Shown here one piece after another: positions 27,305 through 46,552 of a DNA stretch of 64,000 bases; within the stretch, counting starts at the first letter, position 1, and each line of letters begins with the position of its first letter. Where the stretch lies: contig JAKFVC010000004.1 in NCBI GenBank assembly GCA_021732415.1, forward strand, positions 1-64,000, in the 5' to 3' direction. Below the pieces are notes generated by a model, which had not been told where the DNA came from, ran no database searches, and saw nothing but the letters and a program-made list of their open reading frames with translations. The stretch comes from Planctomycetaceae bacterium (GTDB lineage: Bacteria; Planctomycetota; Planctomycetia; Planctomycetales; Planctomycetaceae). The translations under genes and the position numbers were made by a program.

Positions 27305-27371
27305 TGTAGCCTGACTCTCTGAGTCGGGAGCTTAAGAACGAAGACGACCCGACTCGGAGAGTCAGGCTACA
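27305..27371. repeat. GTAGCCTGACTC palindrome between convergent genes
   Basis: Arms 27305-27328 and 27348-27371 pair (TGTAGCCTGACTCTCTGAGTCGGG). The same family is at 42468-42533, with one arm at 16393. The position between convergent stops suggests a bidirectional terminator as well as a repeat. Confidence 0.65.
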
Positions 27372-39447: not shown

Positions 39448-40905
39448 TTACGCGCCCGAAGCTGCCTGCCTGGCTGACAGTTGCCCGGCGCCGAGCAACT
39501 TTAAGTTCAAAGATCCGCCGCTGAAGAGCATCTCGTCCAGCGCCGCATCCACGTCTGCATGGTTGATTTCCAGGCTTCCGTTGCGTTCGATGTGAAATTG
39601 GATGACTCGTCGCATGAGCTCCTTGATGAAGGCGGCGCTCACGCCTTCTGTCCTGGTGACCACTTCAGCAACTAGATCCTTCGCGAGTTGAGCGTCCTTG
39701 GCATAAAGAATGAACAGCTTCTCTCGGCCCAGATCATCTGGCAAGGGAAACTCAATCGCCTGGTCAATACGGCCCGGACGTGACGCCAGTGCGGCTTCCA
39801 AGGCTTCGGGACGATTGGTCGTCAAGACAAACAAGATATCGGCATCTTCCTTCAAGCCGTCCATTTCGTTTAGTAACTTGTTGAGGAGCACCTCTTCACA
39901 GACATTGTTCATCTGGCTGCGGTCTCGAGCGATCAAATCCACATCTTCGAGAACGACGATGCTCGGCTGCAGCAGGCGGGCCAGGACCATGTATTCGGAA
40001 AGCAGTCCGACTTGCTCGGCCGAGACCAAAAGTGTGGTATGTCCCTCGAGGGCCCGGGCGAGGTAGTGGATCGTATGCGTCTTGCCGGTTCCCGGTGGTC
40101 CGTAAAACAGAAGTCCCTTTTTCGTCGCCTGCCGAAATTGCGATAGCCGTTCACGCTGCTTCACAAATTGAATGACGTTCCGCTCAAGAAGATTCAATGT
40201 CGAAGCCGGCAGTATGACCTGCTCACGCTCCACCGTCCGCAGCTTGTGAACCGTAATTCCGGTCGCTTCTCCCGAGTACGAGTGCTCCGCGAGTTCCAGA
40301 GACAGGATTTTACCCCGGTAGGAATCGGCCTTGAGAATCGATTGCTCCAGGTGTTTGAAGAAGTCCTGCGCGATCTGGGTTCCCTCCGCTGAATTGGGTG
40401 TGCCCACCTGAAACTGCAGGCCCGTGTTGCGTCCATACGATCCCACGGCAGACAACAGTACTGCGAAACGAACTCCATTCCGTTGCAACAGCCACAGGCC
40501 ATTTTTCAACACCCGAATCGGTTCATCCTCGCCGATATTGAGTTCTTCGTATTCGGGCGGTATCGAGACCACGGGATTATGCGGGCTGTCCGCAATGCAC
40601 GTCGACAACTCCACTGGCTCGTGCGAGTATTCTCGCCGCACTCCACAAAAATGCAGAACGCGGGTTTGTTCGCCGAACAATTGGTTAATCGCCCGCTGCA
40701 GGTCTGCTCGTACTCGAAACGGAAACTGACGCTCGGAGATCGAGATGTCGCTGAACGGGACCGGGGAAAAGTGTGCAGCCAATTGCGATGGAATCGCGAT
40801 GTGTCCGTGCCCGTGGGTCTTTCGGTTCCGTTGCCAAACGTATGCCGTGGCACCTCCCAATCCAATCAATACGCCGATTAGTATCGCAAGAATGTTATTT
40901 TCCAT
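39448..40905 (-). CDS. Membrane-anchored AAA ATPase
   Basis: The product is 485 residues. A single N-terminal membrane segment (ILAILIGVLIGLGGATAYVW) is followed by a region of about 220 residues without a known domain. The AAA domain has Walker A GPPGTGKT (269-276), Walker B IVVLEDVDLIA (315-325), the sensor TTNRP and the arginine-finger region SRPGRID. The fold is FtsH/Bcs1-like, but no protease domain is attached. It is divergent from the winged-helix gene of the adjacent module, and a dyad lies between them, so co-regulation is possible. Substrate unknown. Confidence 0.8.
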   Translation of the reverse strand: MENNILAILIGVLIGLGGATAYVWQRNRKTHGHGHIAIPSQLAAHFSPVPFSDISISERQFPFRVRADLQRAINQLFGEQTRVLHFCGVRREYSHEPVELSTCIADSPHNPVVSIPPEYEELNIGEDEPIRVLKNGLWLLQRNGVRFAVLLSAVGSYGRNTGLQFQVGTPNSAEGTQIAQDFFKHLEQSILKADSYRGKILSLELAEHSYSGEATGITVHKLRTVEREQVILPASTLNLLERNVIQFVKQRERLSQFRQATKKGLLFYGPPGTGKTHTIHYLARALEGHTTLLVSAEQVGLLSEYMVLARLLQPSIVVLEDVDLIARDRSQMNNVCEEVLLNKLLNEMDGLKEDADILFVLTTNRPEALEAALASRPGRIDQAIEFPLPDDLGREKLFILYAKDAQLAKDLVAEVVTRTEGVSAAFIKELMRRVIQFHIERNGSLEINHADVDAALDEMLFSGGSLNLKLLGAGQLSARQAASGA

Positions 40906-41005: not shown

Positions 41006-41132
41006 GCCTATCCCTGCGCTGGTTTATTTTGCCGACTGACTTTTGTATCATCATCTATACTTTTGATAACGAGTCGATTGCAACCATAAATCATACTGCA
41101 ATCGGCAACCCGAACAGATGGGTGAGGACGAT

Positions 41133-42446
41133 ATGGCGAAGAAAATACCGATGCTGCCGCTCTCGCAAGATTCACGAGATGCGCTGATCCAGGCGATCAC
41201 TCGCAGTCCGGAGCCGCAACTCGCGAAGTCGCTGGCCACAATGCTGGCCGCGTCGCACGCGGCTACAGAAGCTCAAGTGACACCGGTCCTCGAGGAACTT
41301 GCCACGTCGGGAGTGTTAAAAAAGTATACGCCCGGCAAAGGCAAGCCGAAGTACTGGGACCGCGACTTACAGGAATTGACGCGTGACGCGGTTCTGCGTG
41401 CCATCCAGGAATCAACGTCACCGCTCACCGCAAAAGTGGTCGCAGCGAAGATCGCTCCGCCGAAGGTCGCCGAGGCGGATGTGTCGACGATTCTCGACTC
41501 AGCGGTGGCGGGCCAGCGCTGCTTTATAGTTCCGTCTTCCAAGGCCGGAGGCAAGCCCAGCTATTGGCATACGGATCTGCGGGTCATCAGCCGCGACGCC
41601 ATTCGGAAGGCCGCGCTGGAGGCGGACGAGCCCTTCACGGCGAAGGATCTGGCCGACCGGGTCCAGGCTCCGGCCAAGCTCAGTGAAGCTGATGTGATCC
41701 CGGTGCTGGATGAATTGGTGGCGACGAACGCTATCCATTCGATTCCCCCCAAGACGGCTAAGGCCAAGCCGCAGTATTGGATGCACGATGTCTTGGAACT
41801 GGGGCGCCGCATAGTAGTGCAGACCATTGACACGAAGGGGCCGCAGACGCTCGTGTATCTCAGGAGGGTGTTGAAAAGCTTTAGTGACTCGCAGTTTGAA
41901 GAAATCGTCAGCACTCTGCTCGCGAGGGACAGCTTGTTTGCGCGCCCGCCACTGGGATCCGTAAAGCAGGAATTGTTCGGAACGCGGCCCCCTTCTGCGG
42001 CCGCGTATCTGGTGGATGTGGGACAGCAGTTGACGAAGGTGATCGGACTGTTGAAGGCGGCGCGCGTGCCGACCGACGAGTTGCGGCGGAATGTTCTTCT
42101 ATTAGTCGAAGCAGCCGGGATTTCGTTCGGCGCCAGCGGCGGTCCTTCAAACGTGCCGGAAATCCGTCCCGCTGTGGTCGCGGAGACAGTAGATCTGGTC
42201 GGCGTAATCAAACGAATCGAACCCGGGGCGGAACGGGGGGCTCTGGTGGGAGCTCGTGAATTGCGGCGAGCCGTCCATCTGCCGAAGCCCGAGTTTGATC
42301 ATGCGGTGCTGGAACTCGCGCGGCAGGGGCAATTGTCGTTGCATCGACATGATTACGCCACGAGTCTCACGCAGGAAGAGCGTGATGAATTGGTGACGGA
42401 TGGAGATGGAACGTTCTATGTCGGGATGGCCTTAAGGCCGCGGTAA
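41133..42446 (+). CDS. Tandem winged-helix protein, first gene of the FtsK module
   Basis: The product is 437 residues. The ATG at 41133 follows GAGG by 6 nt; an earlier ATG (41118) has no site. Residues about 10-225 contain three winged-helix-like repeats of about 70 residues. Each ends with the same block: KPKYW, KPSYW and KPQYW (about 71-75, 141-145 and 212-216), followed by xxD[LV]. The C-terminal half contains at least one more helical domain (VPTDELRRNVLLLVEAAG) and a last winged-helix-like part. I recognise no named family. Repeated wH domains suggest DNA binding or protein docking; FtsK-type motors often use a wH domain for sequence recognition. Confidence 0.65.
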   Translation: MAKKIPMLPLSQDSRDALIQAITRSPEPQLAKSLATMLAASHAATEAQVTPVLEELATSGVLKKYTPGKGKPKYWDRDLQELTRDAVLRAIQESTSPLTAKVVAAKIAPPKVAEADVSTILDSAVAGQRCFIVPSSKAGGKPSYWHTDLRVISRDAIRKAALEADEPFTAKDLADRVQAPAKLSEADVIPVLDELVATNAIHSIPPKTAKAKPQYWMHDVLELGRRIVVQTIDTKGPQTLVYLRRVLKSFSDSQFEEIVSTLLARDSLFARPPLGSVKQELFGTRPPSAAAYLVDVGQQLTKVIGLLKAARVPTDELRRNVLLLVEAAGISFGASGGPSNVPEIRPAVVAETVDLVGVIKRIEPGAERGALVGARELRRAVHLPKPEFDHAVLELARQGQLSLHRHDYATSLTQEERDELVTDGDGTFYVGMALRPR

Positions 42447-42467
42447 TGGCGAGGCGTCAGCCGAGGT

Positions 42468-42533
42468 GTAGCCCGACTCTCTGAGTCGGGAGTTTGAACG
42501 CGAGGAAGCTCCGACTCAGAGAGTCGGGCTACG
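42468..42533. repeat. GTAGCCCGACTC palindrome inside the module
   Basis: Arms 42468-42490 and 42511-42533 pair (TGTAGCCCGACTCTCTGAGTCGG). It is the same family as 27305. It lies between the winged-helix gene and the AAA+ gene, which may still be co-transcribed. Confidence 0.65.
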
Positions 42534-42551
42534 AAATAGGGGAGTCCAAAC

Positions 42552-44561
42552 GTGAATCCATTTCGATCAGGCATCGTCGCCAGTCCGTGGGAAACCACCA
42601 TCGTCGATGTCAACTCGATTCACCATGACGTCTTCGAGCAATGTCTGCAGGGGATTCAGCAAGTCCGCCAGACGCAACGCAGTGCCGGATTGCTGATTCA
42701 TGGCGAAGCAGGCAGCGGCAAGACGCATCTCTTGCGCCGGCTGCGGACCCATCTCACTCCTTCGGCACCATCGGACACCGATCGTGAGGAAACGCTCTAT
42801 GTCTGGGTGCGACTCCAGACCAGCCCGCGCATGATCTGGCGCACACTAAGACGCACACTGGTCGACGACTGGTTCCGACCGGTCCGCGGTGTGAATTCCC
42901 AATTCCAGCGGATCTTATTCCATCGCTTTGCCGAAATTCGCACTGCTGAGGGTGATCTCGAGCGCTGGTACGAATTCATGCTGGAGAATGATCAACCGGG
43001 CTTGAAGCAATTGTTAGATCAGATTGCCGACGCACTTCATCTCGATCGCAATACCGCCGTAGCGTTCGAGCACATCGCATTTGGTCGTCATTTAAGAGAT
43101 CTGCGAGCGTGGTTGAGTGGTGATTCGCTGCCCGAAGCGGCATTAGTGCGAATGGACCTGGCTCAGGATGAAGGGACTGATGAGGAGCGTGAGGACCAGT
43201 CGCGGCAGATCGTATTGATGCTATGTAAACTGGCCGGGAATGGATTGCCGATTGTTATCAGCTTCGACCAGGTCGAAGCTCTTCAGATCGCGCCCGGCGA
43301 CCGTGACGGTCTGTTTGCATTTGGTCAATTGACGAGCACGTTACACGATAATACGAGTAATGTCTTGATCGTGTCGTGTGTCCAGTCGGCGTTTGTGAGC
43401 GAAATGCGGGCTCATGCCCGACAGGCTGACTATGACCGAATGTTGTCGTTTGCGTCGTGGCCATTGAATCCCCTGAATCGAGATCAGAGTCTGAAGTTGA
43501 TACAGGCTCGACTGAACCATTTCGATCACTCCGAACAATCAGACATTCCTACGACCGCAGGCTGGCCACTGGGATCTGCCGAATTCGATGCCTTGTTCGT
43601 GTCCAATGTTGGGATTTCTCCTCGAAAACTGCTGAGCTTGTGCGCTGACAAGTTTGATATCTGGCACCGACGGGCCAAGCCAGACGTCATCGAAGCGGAA
43701 GACGGCGTGCCAGCTCGAGATCTCGCGTCGACACTCACCGCAACTTCAGAAGAATCCGTGGTAAAACAAAGCGTTGGAGACTTCATCAAGGATAAATGGG
43801 CGGCAGATGTCGAGGCGAAGCGAGCAGCCAGTACTCCTGAACGTACTGAAGACATCGTACGGCACGGTTTGCCCATGCTCGTCAGAATGGTGGTCCCAGA
43901 TGCGAAATTGGTGAGCGATGATCTCTTGCCAGATGTCTCGCTGATATTCGAAACAACATCCGGGCGAACCGGGGTCAGCCTGTGCGCGCAGCCTAATATG
44001 ACGACTCTGGCCAAGCGCCTTGGACGACTGAAGACGCAGTTTGCCACGAAACGACTGCAGCGCCTGGTTGTGGTTCGCGATAGCCGGGTTCCGGTATCTG
44101 CCGGGGCCAAAAAAGCCCAGCAATTGCTCGTTGAACTGGAGCGGCAAAAAGCTGTCGTGTTGCATCCAACCGTAGAGGCCCTCGCCGCGCTGGATGCGCT
44201 ACGGGATCTGCTGTCTGACGCCAAGTCGGGAGATTTGTCGTGGCATGGCGGAACGATTGCTCCACAGTCGCTGGAGGATTGGCTGGTAGCCAATCTGGCG
44301 CAGGGGTTGCAGGACCTCGTTGACGATTGCTTGGGACGCCCGGATACGTCTGGTGGCGAGTTGGTCTCGGATACACGAGACGTTGAGGCACTGAATACAT
44401 TGCTGGCATCGCGCCCGGTGCTGTCGCTCGATGAGGCCGTTGAGTGTCTGCAGCGTCCGATTGAGGTCGTGACAGCCATTGCCGAGCGTCATCCAGATCG
44501 CTTTCGGATGCTGATGGGTCCACCGGCGATACTGTATCGCGCAGAGGATACCCAGACTTGA
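42552..44561 (+). CDS. AAA+ ATPase of the FtsK module
   Basis: The product is 669 residues, starting at GTG 42552 with GGGGAG upstream. The N-terminal domain has Walker A GEAGSGKTH (51-59), Walker B IVISFDQVEAL (234-244) and a sensor-1-like VLIVSCVQSAF (271-281), an Orc/Cdc6-like or STAND-like arrangement. Residues about 410-590 form an unassigned alpha/beta domain with RLVVVRDSRVPVSAGAKKAQ. Residues about 600-669 look like a winged helix (VLSLDEAVECLQRPIEVV). I recognise no exact family. Its place between the winged-helix protein and the nuclease-translocase suggests that it loads or regulates the translocase. Confidence 0.75.
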   Translation: MNPFRSGIVASPWETTIVDVNSIHHDVFEQCLQGIQQVRQTQRSAGLLIHGEAGSGKTHLLRRLRTHLTPSAPSDTDREETLYVWVRLQTSPRMIWRTLRRTLVDDWFRPVRGVNSQFQRILFHRFAEIRTAEGDLERWYEFMLENDQPGLKQLLDQIADALHLDRNTAVAFEHIAFGRHLRDLRAWLSGDSLPEAALVRMDLAQDEGTDEEREDQSRQIVLMLCKLAGNGLPIVISFDQVEALQIAPGDRDGLFAFGQLTSTLHDNTSNVLIVSCVQSAFVSEMRAHARQADYDRMLSFASWPLNPLNRDQSLKLIQARLNHFDHSEQSDIPTTAGWPLGSAEFDALFVSNVGISPRKLLSLCADKFDIWHRRAKPDVIEAEDGVPARDLASTLTATSEESVVKQSVGDFIKDKWAADVEAKRAASTPERTEDIVRHGLPMLVRMVVPDAKLVSDDLLPDVSLIFETTSGRTGVSLCAQPNMTTLAKRLGRLKTQFATKRLQRLVVVRDSRVPVSAGAKKAQQLLVELERQKAVVLHPTVEALAALDALRDLLSDAKSGDLSWHGGTIAPQSLEDWLVANLAQGLQDLVDDCLGRPDTSGGELVSDTRDVEALNTLLASRPVLSLDEAVECLQRPIEVVTAIAERHPDRFRMLMGPPAILYRAEDTQT

Positions 44562-44650
44562 GTTTTTCGACCTTTCTAAACGCAACCGCGACGAGCAACG
44601 ACGCCGCTTAGTCCCATTGATTCAGATACTACCCGTCGGAGATCTCTGAC

Positions 44651-46552
44651 ATGCCCGTGACGCTAACTGTCAGCCAGGTACGCGATGCTCTCTATCGAGC
44701 CGATGGAATGACCGACGCGCGGGGTGCGGGTGCGGCGTCTACCGCGATCCTCGGGACATGGTTCCATGAGGGCTTGGGATGGCTCGTAGGAGACACGGGC
44801 CCGGGGAGCCCGTTGGCGATGTTGGATGAAGTCGACGCCAATCTTGATGCCTGGAAAAAAGTGCTGGTCGATCAGACGTATGCCCGGTTCGTAGGTCCGC
44901 GTTTGACTCAGCAGAACGCGGCGCTGCATGACGTTGCGCTGCAGGTAGGATCGTTTTGGCAGGCGATGCAGGCGGCGTGCCATTGGGTGGCCGAATTGAC
45001 GTGGCGGCTGGCGCAGGAGCGGAAGTCGTTCCGTGAAAAGCTGAGGGCTCCGTGGCAGGAACTTGCGGCCTGTATCTCGACCGAGGAACCACTCGTGTGC
45101 GAGATCCGGGAAGCAAGCTGGTCCGATAGTGTGCGGCTGATCGGGATTGCGGATGCCGTTGTGCGGCGGGCTGACATCGGCGCGTGGTGTGCGATTGAGA
45201 TCAAGCTGGGGCGGACCTCACCGGCGGTCGATCTCGGTCAAGCTTGCCTGTACCACATGATTCTCACTTCCGCTGCGAGTTCACCTGGAGGCCAGCCCAC
45301 GGCAGTCGGTGGGGGGAGCTTGGGTTCATTGGCCCTGGTCAGCTTTCAACCTGAATTGCACGAGCGAGTCTTCTCGGCTCAGGACTTGAAACTCGTCAAG
45401 CAGCGGTTGCTGGATGTCATCGGTAAGCTGGCCGGGGTGACCGAGTCCGCACCAATCAAGGTCGAACCGCAGAAACGCGTCGCCCCGTCAAACGAGCATC
45501 TCGCACTCGGACGGGGTCTTGTCAAAACATTTCACGATTACGCCGTGGCGGTGGAACTGGACGAACCCATCATCGTCGGCCCGACATTCCTGCGATTTCC
45601 CATTAAACTCGGCCGTGGGACGAAGGTCAGTGCGGTTGAAAAGCTCACTGCCGAGTTGCAAGTGCAATTGAAATTGGAGGCCGAGCCGTTTATTAGCCGG
45701 GAACTCGGACAACTCGTGATCGACGTACAGCGCAAGGACCGCGAAAAGATCTATTTTCGAGATGTGCGCTCGCAAATGCCCGCGCCTAAGCCCGGACGCG
45801 GAGGCTCGCATGTTCCCGTCGGAGTGAACCTCTCGGGAGAACTGATCTGCGCCAATCTGGCAGAGCCTCAGCATGCTCACTTCCTGGTCGCCGGTACTAC
45901 AGGCAGCGGTAAGAGTGAATGGTTGCGGTTGGCGATCGCTGGACTGTTAGTGACTAATAGTCCAGAAACGCTCCGGCTATTGGTGATCGATCCCAAGCGG
46001 AATGCGTTCCATGCGTTGAAGGACTCGCCGTTCCTGTGGAAGCCACTGGTCTTTCCCGATGAGACCCCCGCGGCCGATGTTCTCGAAGAGTTGGCCGAGG
46101 AGATGGATCGTCGCTACCGCTTGCTGGACGGCGCGGATTCGATTTCGCAACTCGCCGATCGAACGGGTCAGGTGCTGCCGCGGATTGTCTGCGTGTGTGA
46201 TGAGTACCGAGATCTCATCAGTCGTGGCCGTGTCGAGCGAAAGGCAATCGAACAACAGATTTGCCGGCTGGGCGCGAAAGCTCGAGCCGCGGGAATTCAC
46301 TTGATCCTGGCAACGCAAGAGCCCAGCCGCGATACCATCATGGGGCCGTTGGCGTCGAATGTTCCGGCTCGCGTGGGGTTGAAGATGGGTAAGCACATCG
46401 AATCGACGATGTTGTTAAACGAACGCGGAGCGGAGAAACTATTGGGGAACGGCGACCTGTTGTTCAAGGACATCGGCAACCCGAAGCGCCTGCAGGCCCC
46501 GATGCTCGATGAGGCCGAGCGGAAACTGGTGTTTGGCGAGGGGAGTTCCTGA
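44651..46552 (+). CDS. RecB/Cas4-type nuclease fused to an FtsK-type DNA translocase
   Basis: The product is 633 residues, with GGAG 8 nt before the ATG. Residues 1-210 match a RecB-family PD-(D/E)XK nuclease: the N-terminal His in GTWFHEGLGWL (H39), D168 in IGIADAVV, the E-x-K of AIEIKLG (E183, K185) and QxxxY in LGQACLYH (Q197, Y201). All four motif groups are present. Residues about 400-633 form an FtsK/SpoIIIE motor: Walker A AGTTGSGKS (414-422), Walker B IVCVCDEYRDL (512-522), and LILATQEPSRDTIMG. There is no membrane segment and no C-terminal gamma domain. The inferred role is nucleolytic processing of DNA that the motor pumps. Confidence 0.85.
   Translation: MPVTLTVSQVRDALYRADGMTDARGAGAASTAILGTWFHEGLGWLVGDTGPGSPLAMLDEVDANLDAWKKVLVDQTYARFVGPRLTQQNAALHDVALQVGSFWQAMQAACHWVAELTWRLAQERKSFREKLRAPWQELAACISTEEPLVCEIREASWSDSVRLIGIADAVVRRADIGAWCAIEIKLGRTSPAVDLGQACLYHMILTSAASSPGGQPTAVGGGSLGSLALVSFQPELHERVFSAQDLKLVKQRLLDVIGKLAGVTESAPIKVEPQKRVAPSNEHLALGRGLVKTFHDYAVAVELDEPIIVGPTFLRFPIKLGRGTKVSAVEKLTAELQVQLKLEAEPFISRELGQLVIDVQRKDREKIYFRDVRSQMPAPKPGRGGSHVPVGVNLSGELICANLAEPQHAHFLVAGTTGSGKSEWLRLAIAGLLVTNSPETLRLLVIDPKRNAFHALKDSPFLWKPLVFPDETPAADVLEELAEEMDRRYRLLDGADSISQLADRTGQVLPRIVCVCDEYRDLISRGRVERKAIEQQICRLGAKARAAGIHLILATQEPSRDTIMGPLASNVPARVGLKMGKHIESTMLLNERGAEKLLGNGDLLFKDIGNPKRLQAPMLDEAERKLVFGEGSS

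Follow-up and report, generated by a model that had tools for sequence, protein, structure and literature searches.

Rakesh, Aravind and Krishnan (NAR 2024, PMC10853773) predicted a class of Orc/CDC6-coupled HerA/FtsK capture systems, which were proposed to intercept invading DNA. According to the main text of that study, the class, deduced entirely from sequence analysis, comprises an Orc/CDC6 ATPase, an inactive REase domain located before a C-terminal wHTH domain, an active REase and a HerA/FtsK motor (sometimes with an FtsK alpha domain), accompanied by a fast-evolving protein of two to four wHTH domains and sometimes by a 3'-5' exonuclease. The same text describes DndFGH, composed of the multi-wHTH protein DndG, the kinase-like P-loop protein DndF and DndH, which combines a REase and a HerA/FtsK motor in one chain. 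BREX-Related Capture (BRC; PMC12839542) features PglZ, DUF6079, a STAND NTPase and DUF4007 as its base. Among the related systems for which protection against phages has been demonstrated, the phosphorothioate-linked SspFGH (PMC8092258) is the closest.

The window analyzed here, a stretch of 64,000 nucleotides from a Planctomycetaceae bacterium, harbors a set of three genes (about 5.4 kb) at positions 41118-46552 of the forward strand. An earlier note on this DNA had claimed three same-strand genes, and all three open reading frames are indeed intact and in line, in the order multi-winged-helix protein, ATPase and nuclease-FtsK fusion. The following features were assigned:

41133-42446, + strand: gene 1, predicted DNA-binding protein (in-frame ATG also at 41118)
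about 41166-41357, 41367-41567, 41577-41780 and 41790-41981, + strand: four tandem winged helices of gene 1 (AlphaFold2)
about 42195-42434, + strand: C-terminal (fifth) winged helix of gene 1, after a helical hairpin (AlphaFold2)
42469-42531, no strand: pair of REP-type palindromes separating genes 1 and 2 (arm present in about 200 exact copies in the genome)
42552-44561, + strand: gene 2, GTG start (Pfam AAA_16; AlphaFold2; Foldseek and VIA-align)
about 42552-43679, + strand: Orc1/Cdc6/TnsC-type AAA+ ATPase domain of gene 2 (fold match to Orc1/Cdc6/TnsC)
about 43773-44333, + strand: REase-like domain of gene 2 without ExK motif (AlphaFold2 model, alignment)
about 44355-44540, + strand: C-terminal winged helix of gene 2 (AlphaFold2)
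44651-46552, + strand: gene 3, 633 aa, RecB/Cas4-type nuclease, FtsK alpha domain and FtsK motor
about 44651-45445, + strand: RecB/Cas4-type PD-(D/E)XK nuclease of gene 3 (PDDEXK_1 in homologues; motifs in 18 sequences)
about 45488-45679, + strand: FtsK alpha domain of gene 3 (Pfam FtsK_alpha, 1.4e-5, window protein)
about 45785-46510, + strand: FtsK motor of gene 3 (Pfam FtsK_SpoIIIE, 2.7e-31, window protein)

For gene 1, the start at 41133, as given in the earlier note, is likelier than the one at 41118, because the related proteins begin with MAK. The claimed tandem winged helix was recovered in the AlphaFold2 model (mean pLDDT 84.8, alignment of 13 sequences), in which four wHTH repeats precede a helical hairpin and a further, fifth wHTH domain. 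In VIA-align comparisons, single domains of the model matched wHTH proteins, and residues 17-291 matched the tandem wHTH of SelB (1lva), with high rmsd. Gene 1 is the fastest-evolving member of the trio, since the identities of genes 1, 2 and 3 amount to 69, 81 and 94%, respectively, for the relative G003, and to 45, 59 and 63% for G004.

The assignment of gene 2 as an AAA+ ATPase was likewise upheld and can be sharpened, as judged from its model, to a member of the Orc1/Cdc6/TnsC clade. Orc1/Cdc6/TnsC structures were the top matches of this model in the PDB, with Z values of 15-16 and an rmsd of 3-4 over about 250 residues (Foldseek, VIA-align), and the Walker A (GEAGSGKT) and Walker B (FDQVE) motifs are conserved. 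In the model, residues 408-594 appear as an alpha/beta domain with a REase-like strand order and are followed by a wHTH domain at residues 602-663. We read the alpha/beta domain as a putative degenerate REase-like domain; the ExK motif is absent from all 21 aligned sequences.

The RecB nuclease/FtsK fusion proposed for gene 3 also stood up to closer analysis, by means of the Pfam matches to motor and alpha domain listed above, PDDEXK_1 matches in homologues and conserved motif residues. The N-terminal third of the window protein was not recognized by Pfam; PDDEXK_1 was found in the homologues at L053 (3e-16), L068 (4e-13), L036 (3e-11) and L063 (2e-6). Within an alignment of 18 sequences, the RecB/Cas4 signature residues H39, G165, D168, E183-x-K185 and Q197-x3-Y201 are invariant or nearly so, and the N-terminus of gene 3 is regarded as a REase-type nuclease with predicted activity. 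Like cellular FtsK, gene 3 features the alpha domain and the motor; it differs in that it shows no match to the FtsK gamma domain and no membrane segment.

Screening of genome databases revealed the ordered trio at 24 analyzed loci of unrelated genomes in Planctomycetota and Cyanobacteria, the range of at least two phyla being a lower bound. This recurrence rules out a chance arrangement and supports the conclusion that the three genes represent one conserved module. A scan of genome contigs with the ATPase alignment yielded at least ten planctomycete and at least six cyanobacterial loci, most of them representing the ordered trio. Proteins related to gene 3 over its full length, or nearly so, were present in 5 of the 58 relatives, with genes 1 and 2 adjoining wherever the contig allowed. 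The ATPase gene was present in 52 out of 242 cyanobacterial genomes, and gene 1 adjoined it at each of the 25 cyanobacterial loci inspected. At 15 of these 25 loci, the stretch examined included the gene 3 portion that encodes the nuclease or exonuclease, while longer stretches identified some loci as pairs of genes 1 and 2 without the pump. At one cyanobacterial locus (L116:8131-12262, - strand; same in G369), two tandem Orc/Cdc6-type ATPase genes were observed behind one wHTH gene, without FtsK.

Pairwise distances of the three proteins across the 24 trio loci correlated at 0.80-0.97 (Mantel p ≤0.0004 within each phylum), part of which could come from shared vertical descent alone. Moreover, the trio motors formed one clade (support 99/92), apart from the cellular FtsK proteins, which the trio hosts also keep, and from other plasmid-borne FtsK proteins; outlying members of the clade are less sure due to several long branches in the tree. 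These results bear on the possibility that the three genes merely lie side by side and act apart. Such a reading could draw on the intergenic gaps in the window (105 nt between genes 1 and 2, 89 nt between genes 2 and 3), on the REP palindrome in the first of them and on 10 of the 25 cyanobacterial loci, where no pump was seen in the 1.5 kb next to the ATPase, a result that longer stretches upheld for most of them. However, the constant adjacency of genes 1 and 2 at the cyanobacterial loci inspected, the single motor clade, the overlap of these two genes by 4 or 13 nt in several relatives and a fusion of ATPase and motor at L051 all argue against separate action, which we consider highly improbable. 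As to the palindrome, G000 contains 97 + 104 exact copies of its arm AGCCCGACTCTCTGAGTCGG, compared with 59 for G003 and 15 for G002; the pair between genes 1 and 2 is an insertion and no part of the module. A second REP-type inverted pair is located at 27307-27369 of the window.

Compared to the systems introduced above, the trio shares with the Orc/CDC6-coupled class, as outlined in the main text of PMC10853773, the Orc/Cdc6 AAA+ ATPase, a REase-type nuclease that is predicted to be active, the HerA/FtsK motor (with FtsK alpha in the trio) and a separate fast-evolving multi-wHTH protein (gene 1). Furthermore, the inactive REase before a C-terminal wHTH of that class has a putative counterpart in gene 2, where the REase fold was read from the model, and both variants known from the class occur among the trio relatives: at L053 a HerA-type motor replaces FtsK, and at L068 a DEDD 3'-5' exonuclease is fused ahead of the nuclease. 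In contrast to the two to four wHTH domains given there, the window protein has five, and the words RecB, Cas4, planctomycet- and cyanobacteria do not occur in the main text; the trio nuclease may fall into one of the two REase families of that study. The trio fits this predicted class, and the earlier suggestion of an undescribed module was not supported. Neither an experiment on the trio or its class nor a named experimental system was found in the papers searched.

SspFGH also consists of three genes including a Walker-A protein and an FtsK-like motor protein (SspH), and the gene 3 motor matched the PADLOC SspH model at 3.5e-50. The match is confined to roughly the final 300 of the approximately 1560 positions of SspH, however, and the SspF and SspG models gave no match to genes 1 and 2 at E values up to 1. 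DndFGH (DptFGH), in the account of PMC10853773, corresponds to the trio in having a multi-wHTH subunit, a P-loop subunit and a chain of REase and HerA/FtsK motor, but DndH comprises eight domains and about 1700 aa, compared with 633 aa for gene 3, and DndF is kinase-like rather than of the Orc/Cdc6 type. Among the NCBIfam matches for genes 1-3, none at E values up to 1 was to DptF, DptG or DptH; a DptG family search of the phylum gave no match even in the controls and therefore carries no weight. Six planctomycete hosts were searched with the model of the phosphorothioation gene dndC, which found nothing in five of them (G000, G001, G003, G004 and G005), the host of the window included. No modification gene that might provide self-protection was found. 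BRC has in common with the trio a HerA/FtsK motor, an Orc/Cdc6 AAA+ ATPase and a wHTH protein, whereas the trio lacks PglZ, DUF6079, the STAND NTPase and DUF4007. A Burkholderia glumae plasmid (L037:5076-10032) carries, one after the other, dndC, a gene for a small protein, dndD and a gene for a protein with an FtsK motor, resembling the clade-3 arrangement described in the text of PMC10853773.

The genes surrounding the trio were evaluated as possible further members, as had been suggested for the flanking methyltransferase, GNAT protein and membrane AAA ATPase. These candidates were rejected: in G001, G003 and G004 the upstream membrane AAA gene is located elsewhere than next to the trio, and the downstream methyltransferase, GNAT and histidine kinase genes stay beside it only in G003, which belongs to the same genus. 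The membrane-anchored AAA ATPase itself (39448-40905, - strand) matched the PADLOC models IetA and TRIP13. In G003, a gene for a Hen1 RNA-repair methyltransferase directly adjoins the trio (L031:13451-15085, + strand).

The earlier note had asked whether the set sits in variable islands. The spread of the trio is patchy, with turnover at one Nostocales site; the planctomycete copies examined, on the other hand, are mostly surrounded by ordinary or housekeeping genes, and PADLOC and Pfam scans of their neighbors revealed no convincing defense system. Seven Nostocales genomes have the trio upstream of a ParA gene. At this site, G454 and G476 retain only 168 and 214 aa, respectively, of the FtsK C-terminus (75-88% identical to intact copies), adjoining a divergent ParA-type gene; in G454, this gene encodes a fusion of HSDR_N and ParA and has a ParB_N gene next to it. 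An HSDR_N-ParA fusion is also present in G559, while G552 has a gene of similar size at a similar position, both without a remnant. The remnants and the HSDR_N-ParA-type gene at the fixed site provide direct evidence that the trio was lost and replaced there. An interpretation of the remnants as stand-alone exonucleases proved wrong, since both correspond to the C-terminal portion of the FtsK motor. The fusion of an HsdR-N-like nuclease with ParA that replaces the trio upstream of another ParA gene (L165:8011-10383, - strand; L170:5979-8095, + strand, the latter with an adjoining ParB_N gene) may be an anti-plasmid or defense module of its own.

The alternation of this type of pair with the trio at one site could also be expected for a part of a mobile element, i.e., a plasmid or transposon that employs an Orc/TnsC-type ATPase and a pump to maintain or transfer itself. 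The ATPase fold, which is close to TnsC as well as to Orc/Cdc6, and one copy on a conjugative plasmid point in the same direction. Nevertheless, no gene recurs beside the trio across many unrelated loci, the neighbors varying by locus, and searches for relatives of the ATPase in viral contigs and for the window ATPase in plasmids gave no match. A role as part of a mobile element appears quite improbable. On a Hymenobacter plasmid (L038:4415-13095), the gene for a 993 aa FtsK protein and a Druantia DruA gene lie close to each other, separated and followed by several uncharacterized genes; this set is perhaps another capture system.

RecB/Cas4 nucleases and FtsK are established enzymes of repair and segregation. 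The main rival explanation is a cellular machine for DNA repair or chromosome processing, in which the Orc ATPase and the winged helices would act as sensors of stalled forks or of broken ends, with the FtsK motor moving along the chromosome and the nuclease trimming it. It is in line with the housekeeping surroundings of the planctomycete copies, the ParA gene adjoining the trio in Nostocales and the sequence identities, which parallel those of cellular FtsK: gene 3 and cellular FtsK are 93.7 and 93.5% identical, respectively, to their counterparts in G003, and 62-63 and 62-73% identical to those in G001 and G004. Because of this resemblance, recent transfer is not supported, and the values would agree with an inheritance that is old and largely vertical, combined with losses. 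However, the small share of relatives with a trio, its absence from many cyanobacteria, its replacement at the fixed Nostocales site, the interchangeable motors and nucleases, and a motor clade distinct from the cellular FtsK that the hosts retain speak against the repair explanation, which is rated as unlikely.

We favor, with moderate confidence, a stand-alone counter-invader module of the predicted Orc/CDC6-coupled class: the winged-helix and Orc proteins would tag a DNA molecule, which the motor would pull in and the nuclease would cleave. Patchy spread, swapped motors and nucleases, and site turnover favor defense, whereas the housekeeping surroundings and the identities parallel to cellular FtsK weaken it. 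Further points in favor are the fast evolution of gene 1, the copy on a conjugative plasmid, the AbiLi-like and RloB genes at L125 and the phage blocking by SspFGH; the negative searches of viral contigs and plasmids and for a self-protection gene count against it. The multi-winged-helix protein and the Orc/Cdc6-type ATPase would assemble on incoming or abnormally replicating DNA, the winged helix and the degenerate REase-like domain of gene 2 possibly serving DNA contact. This assembly would load the FtsK-type motor, which would reel in the DNA, and the RecB/Cas4-type nuclease fused to the motor would cut it as it passes. We infer a physical complex, this order of events, such DNA as the target and defense as the purpose.

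Alternatively, the trio may be a self-contained, modification-independent defense chassis, with the multi-wHTH sensor and the Orc/Cdc6 ATPase as the constant pair and interchangeable effectors, telling foreign DNA apart through its topology or the state of its replication instead of a chemical mark. Its effectors would be RecB/Cas4-FtsK, exonuclease-RecB/Cas4-FtsK and RecB/Cas4-HerA, perhaps also AbiL; at L125, genes for an AbiLi-like ATPase and RloB directly follow the pair of genes 1 and 2. This version is put forward tentatively, as a possible but rather doubtful one.

For the counter-invader reading, the trio represents a compact three-gene form residing in hosts without dndC, and thus a small, clean set for asking whether nuclease-armed FtsK pumps intercept invaders. 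It would be equally suited for asking how host DNA is spared without a known DNA mark.
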